Positions 1 to 5,836 of a stretch of 5,836 bases of DNA are shown here, piece by piece. The position numbers were made by a program, and so were the translations under genes. The stretch is from Terriglobus sp. Its GTDB lineage: Bacteria > Acidobacteriota > Terriglobia > Terriglobales > Acidobacteriaceae. The stretch covers positions 1 to 5,836 of the forward strand of contig JAHFTZ010000175.1 in the NCBI GenBank assembly GCA_023265355.1. Direction: 5' to 3'. Below the pieces are notes generated by a model. It was given only the letters and a program-made list of their open reading frames with translations. It was not told where the DNA came from and did no database searches. Position 1 is the first letter of the stretch. Each line of letters opens with the position of its first letter.

Positions 1-1751
1 TCCACAAGTTCCGCGTGTCGCGCGGCGTCCGCCGCTTTCTTCTCTTCGATCAGCGACCGAATCGCGGGCGGCGCCGCCGCCATGAATTCCTCTTCGGTCA
101 TCGTCTTCGCCGACGCAGCCTTGAGGGTGGCGATCTCAGTCGCCTGCTTCTCGGACGCGGCCTTGAGATCCGCCGTCTGCTTCGCCGCCGCCGCCAGCGC
201 CACGTTCGACGCTTCGAGAGCGGTCAGCCCTTCATCGCACATGGCTTCGAGTACCTTGACGTCTTTTATCGTCGTGTACTCGTTCTTGGCCAATGCGGCT
301 ACACGTTCCTGCTTTGACATGTCGTGCTCCTTGTTGGTATCGCCGCTCTCTGCGGCCTTGAGTGAATCCTTGCACTCGGCTCCGAGTGCAACCGTGTTGT
401 CGTGCATCTCATGCGACATCTCGTGCGCCGCCTGGATCTTTTTCATGTCCGCCGCCGAGTTTCGCGCGCCGGCTGCGGCCTTCAGTGCTTCGGCGTAGCG
501 AGGGTCGCCCATCGGTGGGAGCATCAGACGCGCTGTCGTGTTCTGAATGCCATACAAACTGCTGATCATCACGGAGCAAAGCTCGCGAAGAGAGTCGAGC
601 CGCGACGTCTCGACCTCAGTCTCGGCCGCTTCCTGCGACGACGTCTCGGTGGGGTTCTCCGTCTCATCCTCGATCAGCGCATCGATGATGTCAGACGCCT
701 CGTCCCATGAGGCGCCGACCTGATCGAACAGTGTGCGCATCGCGTTGTACGAGATCAGCTCGGCGGCTCCTTCGGATGCCGACTGTTCCGGCGTATCGAA
801 CATCTGACCCGCACTTCGCATCTTGGCGATCAACGAGCGGACGCGTTCAACGAGCGTGCGCTTTTCCATCATGCCACCCTTTTCTAACACCTTTAAGTCT
901 GAAGAATGGTAAGTCGCACTCGTTCCGTCATCATGAAGGATCTGATGAAAGCTGCCATGAGAACCGGTAACGGTGCCCTTACGCCCATATCCATTGATAT
1001 GAGGTGAAGCAACTTTCACACGATCTTCTTGTCGTGGCGTCCGTGAACCGCCGTGTCCTTCTCTCGAGCGAGAAGAAGATGAAGCACCACCAGGAACGTG
1101 ACCGCCTTCCGCCGTCCACCCAGACCCAGGCCCACCAAGATCCTTGAACTCTTCCGCCGTCACCAAGTACGCATGCTGTTCCGCCGCACGCGACGAACCG
1201 CAGCCCATCTCAATCGAGCACGCGCCCCTACCACCAGGAAGGAACGCGAGATGATCGCCGAAGCCTTTGCGCCATACCGCTTTGTAGGGTTTGCCGTTAT
1301 ACTCCCCGGCACGCACTTCTGTTTCCACGAACGAGCCGACACTGACCTCGATCGGCTTACCGGCGCGAATGTCCGCCAGCATCTGCGTCTGGCCAAGAGC
1401 TTCGAGCCGTTCTGGATCGATCCACGCTTCCATGCCAAGCCGCTTCCCATTCATCTGCGACTTGAACACGGTGCCAAACCCTTGATTCGCGAGCACAGTC
1501 GGATCGTTGGCGGAGATCTGTACACCATTTTGTGTCGGATGTCCGACGACAAGTGGACGCCCGTTCCATGTATGCGCGCTCGCCGACAGCATGTCGAAGG
1601 GCACATACTCAGGAACGTCGGCGTTCACCGCATGAATGACGCCTTCCATCAGCGCGACGACAGGTACGACGAGATGCTGGCGCCCTTGATAGGATTCGAC
1701 GCGCACGTCACCGGTCGCGCCAAGCAGATGAAGCTGGCGAGAATTGGTCAT
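1..1751 (-). CDS. DUF2213-type prohead protease with scaffold-like C-terminal region, 3' end outside window
   Basis: The frame is open from the ATG at 1751-1749 to the left edge, about 583 codons, with no stop. Residues 1-200 match the DUF2213 phage family as I know it: HTWNGRPLVVGHP (60-72), EAWID (108-112), IEVSVGSF (134-141), DHLAFLPGGRGACS (166-179). These proteins are taken to be prohead proteases that cleave scaffold and capsid precursors; S137 with H71 or H167 are candidate catalytic residues (inference). A glycine linker starting GGPGSGW follows at 206, then a small beta-rich, KOW/SH3-like segment (about 243-293). Residues 295 onward are Ala/Glu/Lys-rich, with an acidic stretch near 330-360, a motif ARNSAADMKKIQAAHE and a coiled-coil-like end, as expected of a scaffold. 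The start overlaps the minor head gene stop as ATGA, so translation is probably coupled. Protease-scaffold fusion is common in phages. Confident on gene and family, less on catalysis. Confidence 0.85.
   Translation of the reverse strand, partial: MTNSRQLHLLGATGDVRVESYQGRQHLVVPVVALMEGVIHAVNADVPEYVPFDMLSASAHTWNGRPLVVGHPTQNGVQISANDPTVLANQGFGTVFKSQMNGKRLGMEAWIDPERLEALGQTQMLADIRAGKPIEVSVGSFVETEVRAGEYNGKPYKAVWRKGFGDHLAFLPGGRGACSIEMGCGSSRAAEQHAYLVTAEEFKDLGGPGSGWTAEGGHVPGGASSSSRSREGHGGSRTPRQEDRVKVASPHINGYGRKGTVTGSHGSFHQILHDDGTSATYHSSDLKVLEKGGMMEKRTLVERVRSLIAKMRSAGQMFDTPEQSASEGAAELISYNAMRTLFDQVGASWDEASDIIDALIEDETENPTETSSQEAAETEVETSRLDSLRELCSVMISSLYGIQNTTARLMLPPMGDPRYAEALKAAAGARNSAADMKKIQAAHEMSHEMHDNTVALGAECKDSLKAAESGDTNKEHDMSKQERVAALAKNEYTTIKDVKVLEAMCDEGLTALEASNVALAAAAKQTADLKAASEKQATEIATLKAASAKTMTEEEFMAAAPPAIRSLIEEKKAADAARHAELV
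318..332 (-). promoter_or_regulatory. Internal Shine-Dalgarno and in-frame ATG for a possible separate scaffold protein
   Basis: On the minus strand AAGGAG (332-327) stands six bases before an ATG (320-318) that is in frame with the protease gene. The product would begin MSKQERVAALAKNEY and contain only the coiled-coil-like C-terminal part. Phage lambda makes its scaffold Nu3 from an in-frame start inside the protease gene C, so the arrangement has a known parallel. That this start is used here is inference. Confidence 0.45.
873..1025 (-). other. KOW/SH3-like small beta segment inserted in the protease-scaffold protein
   Basis: Residues about 243-293 read DRVKVASPHINGYGRKGTV, then a glycine/histidine turn, then DDGTSATYHSSDLKVLEKGG. 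The pattern of a basic V-x-V strand, an NGYGRKGTV turn, an acidic DDG turn and a closing YHxSDL strand resembles small SH3/KOW-like barrels. It sits between the GGPGSG linker and the scaffold region, and an ATG pair follows directly (872-867), preceded by the purine-rich AAAAGGG. It may be a movable decoration domain. The fold assignment is by eye only. Confidence 0.4.
1071..1136 (-). other. GGPGSG-type glycine linker motif in the protease
   Basis: Residues 206-227 of the protease start GGPGSGWTAEGGHVPGG and end in a run of serines. The motif resembles the one at 4022-4084 in the minor head protein. It marks the junction between the DUF2213 domain and the small beta segment, so it probably serves as a flexible joint between modules. 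Confidence 0.6.
1748..1751 (-). promoter_or_regulatory. ATGA stop/start overlap
   Basis: The minor head gene stop TGA (1750-1748) and the protease start ATG (1751-1749) share bases as ATGA. This suggests translational coupling. The overlap depends on the nine-codon C-extein, so the intein had to insert without disturbing it. Confidence 0.8.
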
Positions 1752-4405
1752 ACTGTTAAGCCCTCGGTACACCGGCAATTGCTAATGACAATGTTTTGTG
1801 CTATAATCCAGCCGACGTCTGCCTGAAGGTCATATACATGTCCCGAAAAATCGAACTCCCGAACATCGACGACCTCATCAAACGCTATGAAGCCGGCACT
1901 TCGCTCTTGCAACTCCAAAATGAAAGCGGCATTGGCCGAGGCGTCTTGACGCGCCAATTCAGGAAGTACCACGTTCAACTCAGAAGCCAATCCAAGCAGG
2001 AGTACCTGAAATGGCAACGGCTCAAACAAGACCGCAGTTTGATCGTCCGCCAAATGCAAGGGGCTTGGAAAGGTAGACGGGGGGCTATTGATCCTCTCGA
2101 ACGAAGAATCAAGCGCGCGCGTACTAACTATGCCCGCCTCAACCATCGTGGCAAATGGGAAGCCGACCTCACCGATGCGCTCAGTGCTGCTAATCTCTGC
2201 GTTCAGCCGTTGTGGCCTATAGGCCCCTACAACGTCGACCTTGCCATCAACCCACCTGGCATCGCCGTGGAGATCCAAACGGCCTATATCAATGGGGGTA
2301 GATCCATGCACCCGCAGCGTCTCGAATACATTCTCGACCAAGGATGGGCGCTGGTAATCATTTACGCCCCCAAAATCTTTGATACCCTCCACTTGACACA
2401 AGAGCTTACAACCCTCGCGCAGCGTTGCAGCTTGGACCCAACCTTGCGCGGTCAGTACAGGGTGCTGTCCGGTGAGGCGGAGCAGATTACCGTTCGAAGT
2501 CTTGATCTCAAAGGCCGGACCCTTATAGCGTGAACGCATTCCCGCAATAATACGACCAGAAATGGTATTTCCGGGTAGCAGGCAATTCGGATGCTGTGGC
2601 GGTCCATCGCCGCCTGGATCGGGATACTCGCCATCCAAGTCTGTCGTCTCACCATCGAGTTCATCACAGATATCGCAGGCTCCCGACGTTGCGATCCAGA
2701 CGCGCTTCTCATCGCCTGTCAACAAACCCTCGTCGACCGCCTGATCCCACCCTTGACGTTGCCCTTCATTTGCGGCATACAGCGTTTCCGTACGCGCGAT
2801 CATCTCCGCGCGAGCATCGTCACCGATTGCGTCTTCAAGCTCGCCACGATCTGTTTCAGGATCAAAGTCCAACGCTTCCGCGACGCGCTCGATCGCGTCA
2901 GCAGTCGTCTGCGACACTTGATCAGCGAGTTCCGCCGCGTGCTTGCGCACCCATTCGCTAGCGCGGGGATCGGCGACGTTGAATTGCATCTTAAATGGAC
3001 CGGCGAGCGTACGAATATCTTGAGAAGCCAGTAGTGCAAGCTTCCCTGCTTTCTTTACAGAAACAGTTATCTCATCTCGCCGCAAGCGCTGGTTCAGTGA
3101 GATGTCCGCGCCATAGACACCACTATGCTGACGAAGTAGATCTGCATAAGGGTTTTCCGGATCATAACGCATGTCAGGCGAAACCTTACGGCTCTGATCA
3201 GGTGTCAGATTAGCTTCCACTACAGCCTTGTCATGACTTGTGATGAAATCCGATGGATGCCCGATCGTAGCAAACGAATCATCAGGCAGCCCTTGCCGCT
3301 TTAATGAAGATGCATTCTCGACAGGCGACTCGTGAAACACTACAAGCCCTTGCGGATACTGCTTCTCGATGGCGCGATGAAACTCTTGCTCAGCGCCATC
3401 TGATGTCTTAAGCGCCTCCTCATTCAAGATGTATCCAGCCTTCGGCTTCGTCACATAGCCACTAGAGATTCCATGAGTGATCCACTTTCCATCTTTTTCG
3501 CTGCCTCTGTTACTGCTACTACCCTCTGTCCACTGCCCCTTTTCATCGCGAGGCTCGTTAGGATCGAAAGCGAGTGTACGCACGTCTTTCGCATCAACCT
3601 TCTTGATGTAGTCGGCGTACTGCGAAAAATCCCCCAAATGCTGGACTGTGATCGTTGTCTTTCCACTCAGCTTTTCTGCAAGCACATTGTGGTTTCCATT
3701 CAGCAAGACTTCCTCGCCGTGGATGGTCGCCACTATTGGCTGCGCCTTCATATAAAACCCATCACGATAGTTCTTGACAGCACTAGGCTGGATATAGTCT
3801 TGCGTAGATTTCAAATCCGCAATGGCCACATCTTTAGAAGACCCCATGACCATGATCGGCAGCCGCTTTGCCTGCTCGAATGTCACTTGCGTTGTCTTAG
3901 AAAGCGGATTATCTACAGATACCCTCTGCAACGATTCCTTACTATCTGAACCGTGGTAAGTCAAAGGGAGCCCAAGTTCTTTTGCAATTACAAGTTCCCC
4001 GGTATCTGGTGTTGACGCAGTAGAACTTCCACCGACCTCGCCTGGACGGCCGCCATGACCGAAGTTACCGCTTCCTGGTCCGCCAGCAGCACGCACGTCT
4101 TGAGCAGCGCGAAGCTTCTTCCCGAGCACCGACAGACCAGCATTGCCACCCGCCTTCAACATCTTCATGAGCACGGCTGGCATGACTTCAAGCAATGCCG
4201 ATCGGATAGCGGCTGCAGCACGCTTCGAGGCACCGGCGTTCGCCGGGCCGAGAGCCTTACGGCCTTTCATAAACGCATGTTGGACAGCAGCTGTCATCGT
4301 CGAGAGGTTAGTATCTGCAGCAGTAAGGACAGGATGCTCGGCTGACAGGCCACGTCGAGCCATGACAATCGCTGCCAGTACGCCGGCAAGCGATTTCGAC
4401 GACAT
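1748..4405 (-). CDS. Mu gpF-like minor head protein precursor with cargo domains and an intein
   Basis: The precursor has 885 residues from the ATG at 4405, 13 bases after the portal stop; removing the intein leaves 616. Residues 1-107 are Ala-rich and helical. A GGPGSG linker lies at 108-128, a ParB/sulfiredoxin-like domain at about 186-258 (NGNHN at 236-240), a second linker DPNEPRDEKGQWTEGSS at 281-297, and an unrecognised domain at 301-455. Residues 470-607 plus the C-extein match phage Mu gpF-like head morphogenesis proteins: ARTETLYAANEGQRQGW, then CDIC (577-580) and HPN/CRC, a probable metal site. Such proteins sit in the capsid near the portal and may be ejected with the DNA. An intein (608-876) splits HPN from CRC, so splicing is needed to build the Cys/His site. 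The start at 4486 would overlap the portal by 68 bases and is less likely. Family call is firm; cargo function is unknown. Confidence 0.88.
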   Translation of the reverse strand: MSSKSLAGVLAAIVMARRGLSAEHPVLTAADTNLSTMTAAVQHAFMKGRKALGPANAGASKRAAAAIRSALLEVMPAVLMKMLKAGGNAGLSVLGKKLRAAQDVRAAGGPGSGNFGHGGRPGEVGGSSTASTPDTGELVIAKELGLPLTYHGSDSKESLQRVSVDNPLSKTTQVTFEQAKRLPIMVMGSSKDVAIADLKSTQDYIQPSAVKNYRDGFYMKAQPIVATIHGEEVLLNGNHNVLAEKLSGKTTITVQHLGDFSQYADYIKKVDAKDVRTLAFDPNEPRDEKGQWTEGSSSNRGSEKDGKWITHGISSGYVTKPKAGYILNEEALKTSDGAEQEFHRAIEKQYPQGLVVFHESPVENASSLKRQGLPDDSFATIGHPSDFITSHDKAVVEANLTPDQSRKVSPDMRYDPENPYADLLRQHSGVYGADISLNQRLRRDEITVSVKKAGKLALLASQDIRTLAGPFKMQFNVADPRASEWVRKHAAELADQVSQTTADAIERVAEALDFDPETDRGELEDAIGDDARAEMIARTETLYAANEGQRQGWDQAVDEGLLTGDEKRVWIATSGACDICDELDGETTDLDGEYPDPGGDGPPQHPNCLLPGNTISGRIIAGMRSRYKGPAFEIKTSNGNLLRLTGQHPVLTAQGWVQAATLREGCKLLCQVEGIKDFGGVNDYQRPSLVENVFETLRVHGSTPIDIGRLDLHGDARWVDGKVDVVGAYRPQRLNAEISSTERIGEVGFPFATMVEAGIVSTRALDSSFERINSPPSTFPSPLHLADDQTAVLFEPLPFQVLLLGLASELNVVLPELARQDASANAAFILELQERSAGFIAFDEVVDVREFDFSGHVYDLQADVGWIIAQNIVISNCRCTEGLTV
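1774..1780. repeat. Direct repeat GGCAATT at one intein border
   Basis: The plus strand has GGCAATT here and again at 2581-2587, spanning the two intein borders. Six bases are forced by the splice-site residues, since Asn-Cys occurs at both junctions with the same codons (AAT TGC). Recombination between the copies would remove the intein DNA exactly and restore an intact extein. Confidence 0.7.
1779..1807 (+). promoter_or_regulatory. Sigma70-type promoter for the antisense endonuclease gene
   Basis: The -10 box TATAAT (1802-1807) is a perfect consensus with an extended TG at 1799-1800. The -35 candidate TTGCTA (1779-1784) matches TTGACA at four of six positions with the optimal 17-base spacer. 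Transcription would start near 1814. The -35 box begins one base inside the intein border, in the codons for the last residues of the intein, so the promoter travels with the element. Activity is inferred from sequence. Confidence 0.75.
1825..1829 (+). promoter_or_regulatory. Ribosome binding site GAAGG that decides the endonuclease start
   Basis: GAAGG ends eight bases before the ATG at 1838. This favours ATG 1838 over the in-frame TTG at 1796, which lies upstream of the predicted transcript start and so would not be on the mRNA. Confidence 0.65.
1838..2533 (+). CDS. Putative Vsr/EDxHD-like homing endonuclease coded antisense to the intein
   Basis: The protein has 231 residues and a basic N-terminal part. 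Residues about 8-48 form a helix-turn-helix (DDLIKRYEAGTSLLQLQNE, then GIGRGVLTRQFRKYHV) like the DNA-binding domain of many homing enzymes. The nuclease core follows: KWEADLTDAL (E108), IGPYNVDLAI (D134), IAVEIQ (E145), MHPQRLEYILDQGW (H158, R161). This order of strands and acidic residues fits the Vsr-like EDxHD branch of the PD-(D/E)xK superfamily, with Gln where Lys is classical. The whole gene, its promoter and RBS lie within the intein borders (1778-2584) on the opposite strand, and codons pair in exact register with intein codons. The likely role is to cut intein-free alleles of the head gene and drive intein spread. Family by eye is good; cleavage and target are inference. The chance-antisense-frame alternative is disfavoured by the domains and expression signals. 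Confidence 0.8.
   Translation: MSRKIELPNIDDLIKRYEAGTSLLQLQNESGIGRGVLTRQFRKYHVQLRSQSKQEYLKWQRLKQDRSLIVRQMQGAWKGRRGAIDPLERRIKRARTNYARLNHRGKWEADLTDALSAANLCVQPLWPIGPYNVDLAINPPGIAVEIQTAYINGGRSMHPQRLEYILDQGWALVIIYAPKIFDTLHLTQELTTLAQRCSLDPTLRGQYRVLSGEAEQITVRSLDLKGRTLIA
2581..2587. repeat. Direct repeat GGCAATT at the other intein border
   Basis: This is the second copy of the seven-base repeat. It spans the Asn607/Cys608 junction of the N-extein and intein. The matching copy spans the intein's last Asn and the first Cys of the C-extein. Confidence 0.7.
2585..2996 (-). other. Mu gpF-like head morphogenesis domain of the minor head protein (N-extein part)
   Basis: Residues about 470-607 run from GPFKMQFNVADPRASEW through helical segments to CDIC (C577, C580) and HPN (605-607). 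With CRC supplied by the C-extein (C877, C879), four cysteines and one histidine come together after splicing. The motif spacing fits a metal-binding finger known in this head protein family. The intein sits at the most conserved point of the domain, as is usual for inteins. Confidence 0.8.
3041..3505 (-). other. Unrecognised cargo-like domain of the minor head protein
   Basis: Residues about 301-455 lie between the RDEKGQWT linker and the gpF-like domain. Visible landmarks are GLVVFHESPVENASSLKRQG (353-372), then DDSFATIGHPSDFITSHDKA (375-394) and DMRYDPENPYADLLRQHSGV (411-430). The pattern of a His near the start, an SSLKRQGL helix and a later FATIGHP loop recalls some ADP-ribosyltransferase-like folds, but I cannot place it and claim no function. 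The DNA is AT-richer than the flanking genes (28 of 60 GC at 3301-3360), suggesting separate acquisition. Confidence 0.4.
3515..3565 (-). other. RDEKGQWT linker motif of the minor head protein
   Basis: Residues 281-297 read DPNEPRDEKGQWTEGSS. From memory this type of motif (DPxxPRDExGxW, then Gly/Ser) recurs in many phage minor head proteins at joints between modules. Here it separates the ParB-like domain from the unrecognised domain. It may be a connector or a packaging tag; neither role can be shown from sequence. Confidence 0.6.
3632..3850 (-). other. ParB/sulfiredoxin-like domain in the minor head protein
   Basis: Residues about 186-258 contain DVAIADLKSTQDYIQPSAV, then KAQPIVATIHGEEVLLNGNH and NVLAEKLSGKTTITVQHL. 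The order of an address strand, a helix, 'PIV', 'LLNGNHN' and a closing strand matches the ParB N-terminal-like fold, in which the usual G(H/N)HR loop binds nucleotide. Here the loop is GNHN, with Asn in place of Arg, so catalysis or nucleotide binding may be altered. Within a capsid protein it may be cargo delivered with phage DNA (inference). Confidence 0.6.
4022..4084 (-). other. GGPGSG-type glycine linker motif in the minor head protein
   Basis: Residues 108-128 begin GGPGSGNFGHGGRPGEV and end GGSS. The motif lies just after the Ala-rich N-terminal helical part and opens the cargo block. It resembles the linker at 1071-1136 in the downstream protease. Base composition becomes AT-richer immediately after it. 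Confidence 0.65.
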
Positions 4406-4418
4406 AACGGCCGCTCGC

Positions 4419-5836
4419 TCAGTCAACGGGAGCCTCGGGCCACAAGATACTGCGGACTGCTTTAACATCACCCGCGTCGATAGCATCCTCGAGCGTACGA
4501 GCGAGCGCTGAGAACTCAGCTGCGCGAGGAAGTCCCTCAGCAGGATTGATGTTCGCCGTCTCGCGAATTGGCGCGGAGACAGGCTGCTTCTGTTCAGGCG
4601 TCAACGGCGCAAGTCCATACCAGTGTTCGCGGATCTCGTCATCTGTGAAGACGGTAACACCCATCTCCTTGTTAACGTTCGCCCACTTCATCGCACCGTC
4701 GGCCGGCGACAAGAACTCCGTCTCGTCAGGCTTCACTTCACGTGGCGCCATGCTATACCATTTCTGGCGGATCTCCTCTTCATCGAACACGACGGCGCCT
4801 TGCGTCTTGTTAACCTCGGCCCACGCTTTCGCACCAGCAGAACGTTCCTCTTCGGTTGACGTTTCGATATCGGGCCAATGCACGACGTACTGCACTGGCT
4901 TCGGCAGATAGCCATACGCGATCAAATGATCGACGAGCTTCCGAATGATCGATGGACCAGCGTATCCAGTACGACGACCGTGGATCTGATCCTTCCAGTT
5001 GTCGCGATCCTGACTCGACGCGAGTTCGCCCATCTCCGAGCCCGTCAGGATCCGCTTGGGAATCCCTTTCGTGCCAGCGATCTGTGTGAGGATCGCATCA
5101 GCCTGGTTCGAGAAGTTCGCAACGTCAGAGCCAAGTGCTTCAACCTTCACGCCGCGCGTGCGGAGCATGCGACGGATCTGATGCTGATACTCATCGGCCT
5201 GCGTCTTAAGCGCTGTCTTTTCTTCAGCTGACAGCGTCATGTCCTTGTCGATGTCGAGGTGCAGTCCTTGATTGGCGCGCAGCCAAACGGACTCAGCACC
5301 ACCACCCGTGACCTTATCCAGATCGTCGAGCAAGTTCCACACAGCTTCGAGCGTCGGCTGGCCATACGACTCGTTGTCCAGTAACCCCTCGGCGATGTGA
5401 ATTACACGAGACCAATGGACGGGCTTAGAAAGCTGAGGCGACGATATATCCAGCCGACGAAGTGAGTAGGTCTCAGGGAGACCAAAACGTGGATTCGTTG
5501 CGTCGGTGACGTAGGTTTGTATCGTGGCGTCGACGAAGTCTGGCCCGGTCGACGCATCGATACGAATGCCAGGTCCGCCCCCACCAGAAAATGGTGTGAC
5601 AAACAGCACATCCTGCGGTCCCCGGCCTTTTGGAAGTTCCAGCGACAAATCCTGCCCGCCCTCGCCCGCAACACCAATCAACAGCACCGCGTACGTGCTG
5701 AGTCCGGCCAAGATGTCCACGCGATACAGCATGCCGGCAAGATTGAGACGCGTTGCGAACGTGTCCCAGATCGTTTCGAACGCGGTATCCTTTTCAGGAT
5801 CGTCGTATTCCCAGAGTTGAAACTCGCCGCGCCAGG
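4419..5836 (-). CDS. DUF1073-type portal protein, 5' end outside window
   Basis: The frame is open from the right edge to the TGA at 4421-4419, giving 471 visible residues; the ATG at 5732 is internal, because the frame continues upstream as FETIWDTFATRLNLAG. Segments typical of this portal family as I know it are LSKPVHWSRVIHIAEGLLDN, then the NFSNQADAILTQIAGTKGIP stretch and KRILTGSEMGELASSQDRDN (the 'tGe.a..d..n' region). Portals form the dodecameric ring at one capsid vertex through which DNA is pumped and ejected. The C-terminal part carries two copies of a 30-residue unit (4605-4832). The next gene begins 13 bases after the stop, so the two are co-transcribed; no terminator lies between. 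The family call is firm, from the core and gene order. Confidence 0.87.
   Translation of the reverse strand, partial: WRGEFQLWEYDDPEKDTAFETIWDTFATRLNLAGMLYRVDILAGLSTYAVLLIGVAGEGGQDLSLELPKGRGPQDVLFVTPFSGGGGPGIRIDASTGPDFVDATIQTYVTDATNPRFGLPETYSLRRLDISSPQLSKPVHWSRVIHIAEGLLDNESYGQPTLEAVWNLLDDLDKVTGGGAESVWLRANQGLHLDIDKDMTLSAEEKTALKTQADEYQHQIRRMLRTRGVKVEALGSDVANFSNQADAILTQIAGTKGIPKRILTGSEMGELASSQDRDNWKDQIHGRRTGYAGPSIIRKLVDHLIAYGYLPKPVQYVVHWPDIETSTEEERSAGAKAWAEVNKTQGAVVFDEEEIRQKWYSMAPREVKPDETEFLSPADGAMKWANVNKEMGVTVFTDDEIREHWYGLAPLTPEQKQPVSAPIRETANINPAEGLPRAAEFSALARTLEDAIDAGDVKAVRSILWPEAPVD
4605..4832 (-). repeat. Tandem 46-residue repeat in the portal C-terminal region
   Basis: Two 30-residue units lie at 4743-4832 and 4605-4694, separated by 16 residues, giving a period of 138 bases. 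They share 16 of 30 residues, including W, VNK, G, VF, EIR, WY and the final AP. DUF1073 portals usually have an 'A...A..D..Y...GVL...EVR' segment near the C-terminus; these copies look like a duplication of it. The DNA copies have diverged, so the duplication is not recent. Confidence 0.75.

Follow-up and report, generated by a model that had tools for sequence, protein, structure and literature searches.

Can one segment of DNA encode an intein on one strand and, on the other, the nuclease that would spread it? The question is raised by a 5,836-nucleotide stretch of a Terriglobus sp. assembly (GCA_023265355.1, contig JAHFTZ010000175.1, positions 1 to 5,836; hereafter the window), in which a phage head gene is interrupted by an intein. 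A preliminary description of this DNA had placed a 269-residue intein at 1778..2584 of the minus strand and, on the plus strand of the same segment, a 231-residue protein proposed as its probable Vsr-like homing nuclease. The coordinates proved exact, and the proposed pairing is supported by our computational tests of the frame, the acidic residues and the substitutions. Judged by sequence comparison, the pairing is real and widespread, and it is probably a homing intein of new architecture. The features on which the argument turns are these:

1748..4486, minus strand: open reading frame (ORF) of a MuF-like head morphogenesis gene (the host, or extein, gene), interrupted by the intein, with PHROG matches
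1778..2584, minus strand: intein of 269 residues, from Cys1 to Asn269, followed by Cys+1
2450..2473, minus strand: intein block B, TGQHPVLT, with T38 and H41 conserved in at least 90% of 30 sequences
1826..1843, minus strand: intein block F, GHVYDL, whose antisense is the Shine-Dalgarno-like sequence and start codon of the nuclease gene
1838..2533, plus strand: antisense gene for the predicted nuclease, 231 residues (ATG at 1838, stop at 2531-2533), wholly nested in the intein

The antisense gene leaves 20 intein codons uncovered on one side and 17 on the other. Each of its codons exactly complements an intein codon, the number of an intein residue being 250 minus that of the nuclease residue opposite, and each of the remaining four frames of the segment has many stops. 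Its product has the following predicted parts, for which conservation is given first in an alignment of 33 sequences (18-61% identity to the window) and then in the 189 loci (136 clusters at 80% identity) that form the union of the nuclease-side and intein-side sets described below:

1865..1972, plus strand: helix-turn-helix (HTH) DNA-binding region, residues 10-45, conserved in the family
2144..2530, plus strand: Vsr/DUF559-like nuclease domain, residues 103-231
2159..2161, plus strand: catalytic-type E108, invariant (n=33); E in 181 of the 189 loci, D in 6, S in 1 and an ambiguous E/K in 1
2237..2239, plus strand: catalytic-type D134, invariant (n=33); 188 of 189 loci
2270..2272, plus strand: catalytic-type E145, invariant (n=33); 186 of 189 loci
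2318..2320, plus strand: R161, invariant (n=33); 187 of 189 loci

The nuclease profile and model matches are to DUF559 (3hrl), Vsr and the homing endonuclease I-Bth0305I, and the E...D...E residues lie on a nuclease fold as in DUF559/MTES_1575/Vsr-like enzymes. E108, D134 and E145 occur together in 129 of the 136 clusters; in one locus (L005) the catalytic pattern reads YFVD. The preliminary description had named H158 alongside these three acidic residues, and here it did not hold: H158 is variable, and no histidine column of the 33-sequence alignment is invariant or nearly so. The EDxHD motif includes a conserved histidine. Membership of the EDxHD family is therefore rejected, although the Vsr-like fold fits, and by its sequence the predicted plus-strand nuclease is closer to DUF559/MTES_1575.

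The minus frame has the motif set of a class 1 intein, namely a nucleophile at position 1, TxxH in block B, blocks F/G, and Asn followed by Cys, Ser or Thr; like T38 and H41, C1 and N269 are conserved in at least 90% of the 30-sequence set. The junctions read HPN before Cys1 and ...VISN|CRCT at the other end, leaving a C-extein of only nine residues (CRCTEGLTV). PF14890 matches the window intein at 7.7e-8 (32.7 bits, below its cut-off of 35.8), the Pfam intein model is matched by 27 of 30 family members at E 0.01, and the matches of this frame, which are inteins, indicate a Hint fold. Among the profile matches of the intein frame, in the window and in family members, there is no endonuclease domain model. 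With no such match in the intein polypeptide and the nuclease on the other strand, we reject a classical intein with an in-frame homing endonuclease. The further suggestion that the element gains homing without enlarging the intein is doubtful, as about 100 poorly modelled residues in the middle of the intein lie opposite the nuclease.

The arrangement recurs widely. A tblastn search of 50,697 phage records found the nuclease in 115 records and the intein region in 131, from which we took 23 records with the pairing (L006-L028) and a Klebsiella record that also has it (L114), together with three control inteins (L029-L031), a fragmented unverified record (L032) and an empty site (L033). The nuclease frame begins and ends within the intein in all 28 loci with set intein boundaries (the window, L002-L005 from IMG/VR, and L006-L028), and a midpoint check of 21 rows found the sole long opposite ORF in register 0 (one row duplicates the window, and that of L006 is a neighbouring gene). 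A profile scan of IMG/VR with the nuclease gave 157 relatives, and the best 80 of the 157 are all antisense, in register 0 and within an intein ORF. Scanning from the intein side (alignment and block F pattern) gave 117 relatives, and all of the best 80 of these have a register-0 antisense nuclease, its frame unbroken in 78 and interrupted in two (L143, L160). The antisense frame is conserved open, and this intein-side set was also the place to look for the opposite case, the same intein facing a frame riddled with stops; only those two loci are interrupted. Not counted were L001 (the window's own place), L032 (both frames fragmented), L029-L031 and L033, and the several loci that share contigs were merged by clustering.

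Because both profiles were trained on the same DNA, the agreement between the two scans is partly circular, and we therefore looked to more independent signs of an intein: the first residue is Cys in 72 of 79 representatives, a TxxHxxxT-like block B is present in 72 of 79 and an N|C/S/T end in 74 of 79, besides the Pfam intein matches given above. Ten atypical host ORFs all match PHROG head proteins, some of them solely through PHROG 15127, a model that matches the intein as well. None of the three control inteins (in the TerL genes of L029 and L031, and in FoX3, L030) has an antisense nuclease match at E 0.1; therefore not every phage intein has one. In cellular genomes of the phylum, matches occur in 30 of 396, including the window's own; outside it they are weaker (E 1e-8 to 9e-4), partial and mostly to the nuclease core, many of them in ORFs longer than 1000 residues. 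Not one of the 24 phage records (L006-L028, L114) has an annotation for the nuclease gene, which is therefore easily missed; the intein is mentioned in four (L011, L015, L018, L028).

A few loci depart from the common form. In Rhodococcus phage REQ3 (L016, 2351-3025) the intein apparently starts with Ala and the nuclease, counted from the first ATG, has 181 residues and no HTH, so that this element is perhaps a decaying or variant copy. In L143 and L160, with interrupted nuclease frames, and in L149, where the active-site residues are replaced, the intein ORF is open; all three may represent a homing cycle in its decay phase.

An open frame opposite a gene may be no more than its non-coding shadow. 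In this antisense register stops arise solely from TTA and CTA (Leu) and TCA (Ser) codons, which are rare in GC-rich DNA (rich in guanine and cytosine), where antisense stops seldom arise. Conditioned on the intein's Leu and Ser residues and on local codon usage, the chance of an open frame is 0.011 for the window alone, and it is about 0.1-0.4 in several GC-rich relatives (as high as 0.44), figures that a shadow would accommodate. In the 16 examined relatives with a GC content of at most 0.53, however, it ranges from 4.5e-3 to 3.4e-14 (for example 8.6e-5 in Cronobacter ES2, 2e-9 in Aaphi23, 8e-12 in Vibrio VaM_H2 and 3.4e-14 in Vibrio 1.113.A), these being values per locus from relatives that are not independent. 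A shadow also sits badly with nuclease and HTH profile matches that follow each other in a sensible order along the plus-strand ORF, and with the amino-acid identity of related pairs, which is higher in the nuclease frame in 20 of 22 informative pairs, equal in one and lower in one. Together with the substitution patterns that follow, the open-frame chances lead us to reject this explanation for the family and to regard it as scarcely credible.

The substitutions were compared in 23 pairs aligned by intein protein, 22 of them informative (one pair is identical) and one without a usable extein. The ratio of third- to first-position differences is below 1 in the overlap in 20 of 22 pairs (0.25-1.22) and above 1 in the exteins in 21 of 21 usable pairs (1.30-9.71). 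By region (21 pairs, exact borders, intein-frame alignment), outside the nuclease gene it is 2.86 for intein codons on the N side and 2.14 for the final 20 codons; it is 1.20 and 1.16 in the overlapped splicing blocks, 0.81 opposite the nuclease core and 0.67 opposite the HTH and linker. The selective regime therefore changes where the antisense gene begins and ends. A regional alignment in the nuclease frame, with a fixed bin for the first 18 codons, which some nuclease genes reach, gave the same picture. The pairs in these three comparisons are not independent. In 62 disjoint pairs, formed from 124 of the 189 loci and aligned in the nuclease frame, third positions change more than first positions in the nuclease frame in all 62, and the exteins, compared in 50 of the 62, have the normal pattern of the head-gene frame in 45. 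A check for selection on both frames had been proposed from the start, and its outcome, as far as codon-position patterns can tell, is that the antisense frame is under selection as a nuclease reading.

The same comparison bears on a second alternative, in which the nuclease is real and the minus frame is a passenger that has stayed open but lost its splicing, the head protein tolerating the insertion. The intein frame is less conserved than the nuclease frame opposite the nuclease core and the HTH, and the middle of the intein is modelled poorly, both of which such a passenger would explain. Set beside the splicing residues and junctions kept across the family, we hold this to be very unlikely and favor an intein that splices.

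Separate expression of the nuclease, also part of the preliminary description, is plausible, given the signal-like sequences embedded in the intein DNA on the nuclease strand:

1779..1807, plus strand: sigma-70-like promoter TTGCTA-17-TATAAT with TG before the -10, inside the intein and 30 nucleotides before the nuclease ATG
1826..1830, plus strand: Shine-Dalgarno-like AAGGT, 7 nucleotides before the ATG

The promoter-like sequence has 10 of 12 matches, and two such sites fall within 1600-2700, against 0.9 expected from shuffles. In most loci the nuclease gene starts exactly opposite the block-F His codon (the chosen start is elsewhere in L005, L009, L012, L016 and L027). In 61 of the 79 representatives, leaving out 18 without a recognisable block-F His, this codon is CAT (giving ATG) in 48 and CAC (giving GTG) in 13, where the exteins would lead one to expect 23.9 CAT (standard deviation 3.5). 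A Shine-Dalgarno match of at least 4 nucleotides is present in 55 of the 61, whereas 300 synonymous recodings average 38 and never exceed 47. An exact TATAAT occurs on the nuclease strand within the last 16 intein codons in 21 of 74 representatives (the five without an N|C/S/T end were left out), where 500 recodings average 3.6 and reach 9 at most; a test restricted to the Ile-Ile codons by the intein end was too narrow, the window's -10 lying five codons further in.

Does the element move? LSPA1 and Snoke have 18 differences in 687 in the compared part of the intein and 143 in 1074 in the exteins, and UPWr_S5 and LSPA1 have 26/687 and 250/1071, respectively, whereas Vivi2 and Angelicage show the opposite trend (115/819 in the intein part, 78/2211 in the exteins). 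In phage 590B the head gene is uninterrupted at both insertion sites, that of LSPA1 and Snoke and that of fEg-Eco06, which are 22 codons apart, and 121 of 130 records similar to the 590B site region span 80% or more of it at a single place. Presence and absence at one site, together with divergence discordant with the host gene, are found in Guernseyvirinae and Gordonia phages, and imply that the element is mobile. For the window's phage this combination was not found: no close intein-free relative turned up, and the MuF genes of Arthrobacter and Microbacterium phages that align across the window's junction do so by only 3 to 7 residues. As a separate observation, L014 and L015 carry different elements of the family in one and the same Guernseyvirinae head gene, at sites separated by 22 codons, and neither record has both.

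These data also bear on whether the nuclease serves homing at all, or another phage role such as cutting the DNA of competitor phages or Vsr-style repair. Vsr and DUF559 relatives include non-homing enzymes, and the homing activity of the nuclease is predicted from sequence. On the other hand, the gene lies inside an intein in the 189 analysed loci (from searches seeded with such genes, the surroundings of P0003-P0012 not included), and the element is patchy at its sites and diverges discordantly with the host gene, as homing predicts. We consider a role other than homing unlikely.

What we favor, with considerable confidence, is that the predicted intein and the predicted Vsr/DUF559-like nuclease form one homing element that spreads between phages, with cutting, copying and splicing steps that we infer from the anatomy of the family. 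The nuclease would be made from its own promoter inside the intein, and would bind a MuF head gene that lacks the intein and cut it at the insertion site HPN|CRC or close by. If the break were repaired with an intein-bearing copy as template, intein and nuclease would be inserted as one unit; as the nuclease is written on the intein's complement, copying the one necessarily copies the other. Transcription of the head operon from the other strand would then yield an intein that splices itself out and leaves a working head protein.

A more far-reaching proposal, to which as a whole we incline with clearly less assurance, is that such mirror-coded homing inteins are a class, in which one DNA is read codon for codon both ways as two dissimilar, mutually dependent proteins. 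Conserved intein motifs would at the same time form the control region of the antisense gene, with the -10 promoter element in the final strands and block G and the ribosome site and start codon in block F, and selection would be stronger on the nuclease frame. The nuclease could not be lost or exchanged by recombination without disruption of the intein, and its antisense transcription may in addition set the timing of the late head gene.

Both inteins and homing endonucleases are familiar, but in the form of one protein domain set within another. Classical inteins have an in-frame homing endonuclease of the LAGLIDADG or HNH type; they share with the present element a Hint splicing domain with Cys1, TxxH and Asn|Cys, and a nuclease encoded in the intein DNA, whereas here the nuclease is a separate protein, encoded on the opposite strand and overlapping most of the splicing domain codon for codon. 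Homing endonucleases of the I-Bth0305I/EDxHD type (solved structure 3r3p) reportedly occur in "fractured genes", with the gene between split halves or in an intron. They have a similar Vsr-like fold; in our family, in contrast, the motif histidine varies, an N-terminal HTH is present and the gene is antisense to a contiguous intein. Antisense homing endonuclease genes occur in nuclear group I introns, likewise opposite the strand of the host gene, but these overlap a catalytic RNA and not a second protein-coding frame.

Among the texts compared, the nearest published idea is the ShiLan-type insertion. PMC11855218 describes an HNH endonuclease hidden in phage methylase genes in an alternative frame of the same strand, the host frame being kept open. 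The hidden frame and the open host frame are as here, and the strand (opposite here), the nuclease (Vsr-like here) and the host frame (without detectable intein there, according to that text) differ, for which reasons we do not assign our element to the ShiLan type. The same text cites its authors' own 2025 preprint on actinophage inteins with "non-canonical architecture" in connection with overlapping frames. The scope of that preprint could include phages of Gordonia and Mycobacterium encountered in this analysis (Vivi2, Sejanus), and it may already describe antisense nucleases in inteins. In a literature search of titles and abstract openings, an antisense nuclease gene in an intein was not described among the matches listed.

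The family has two unrelated folds sharing most of their base pairs in a fixed register across many phage lineages, and it offers an extensive natural collection in which to study antisense dual coding, which has mostly been debated on individual cases. It also changes the reading of inteins that seem to lack a nuclease, since the opposite strand may encode one. The nuclease can be expressed on its own and there are known empty sites, so that homing lends itself to a direct test.

The window's head gene matches PHROG models for head protein (1.2e-22) and head morphogenesis (1.2e-16), as well as PF04233 (5.3e-5, under that model's cut-off), and is flanked by a portal gene and a DUF2213 gene. 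At 1748-1751 (ATGA) its stop codon TGA shares bases with the start codon ATG of the next gene downstream, that for DUF2213, which suggests translational coupling of the two. A glycine-rich motif, GGPGSG...GG, is shared by the head ORF (residues about 130-155) and the DUF2213 ORF (about 210-235), and between this motif and the MuF domain (about 2900-4100, minus strand) lie several hundred head-ORF residues with no confident Pfam match. Elsewhere in the family, the host gene of L064 (1892-4330) has its match in a PHROG named "minor head protein and DNA pilot", with Ser as the residue after the intein, where Cys is usual, and at the protein level P0017 is a related intein in a protein whose flanks do not seem MuF-like.

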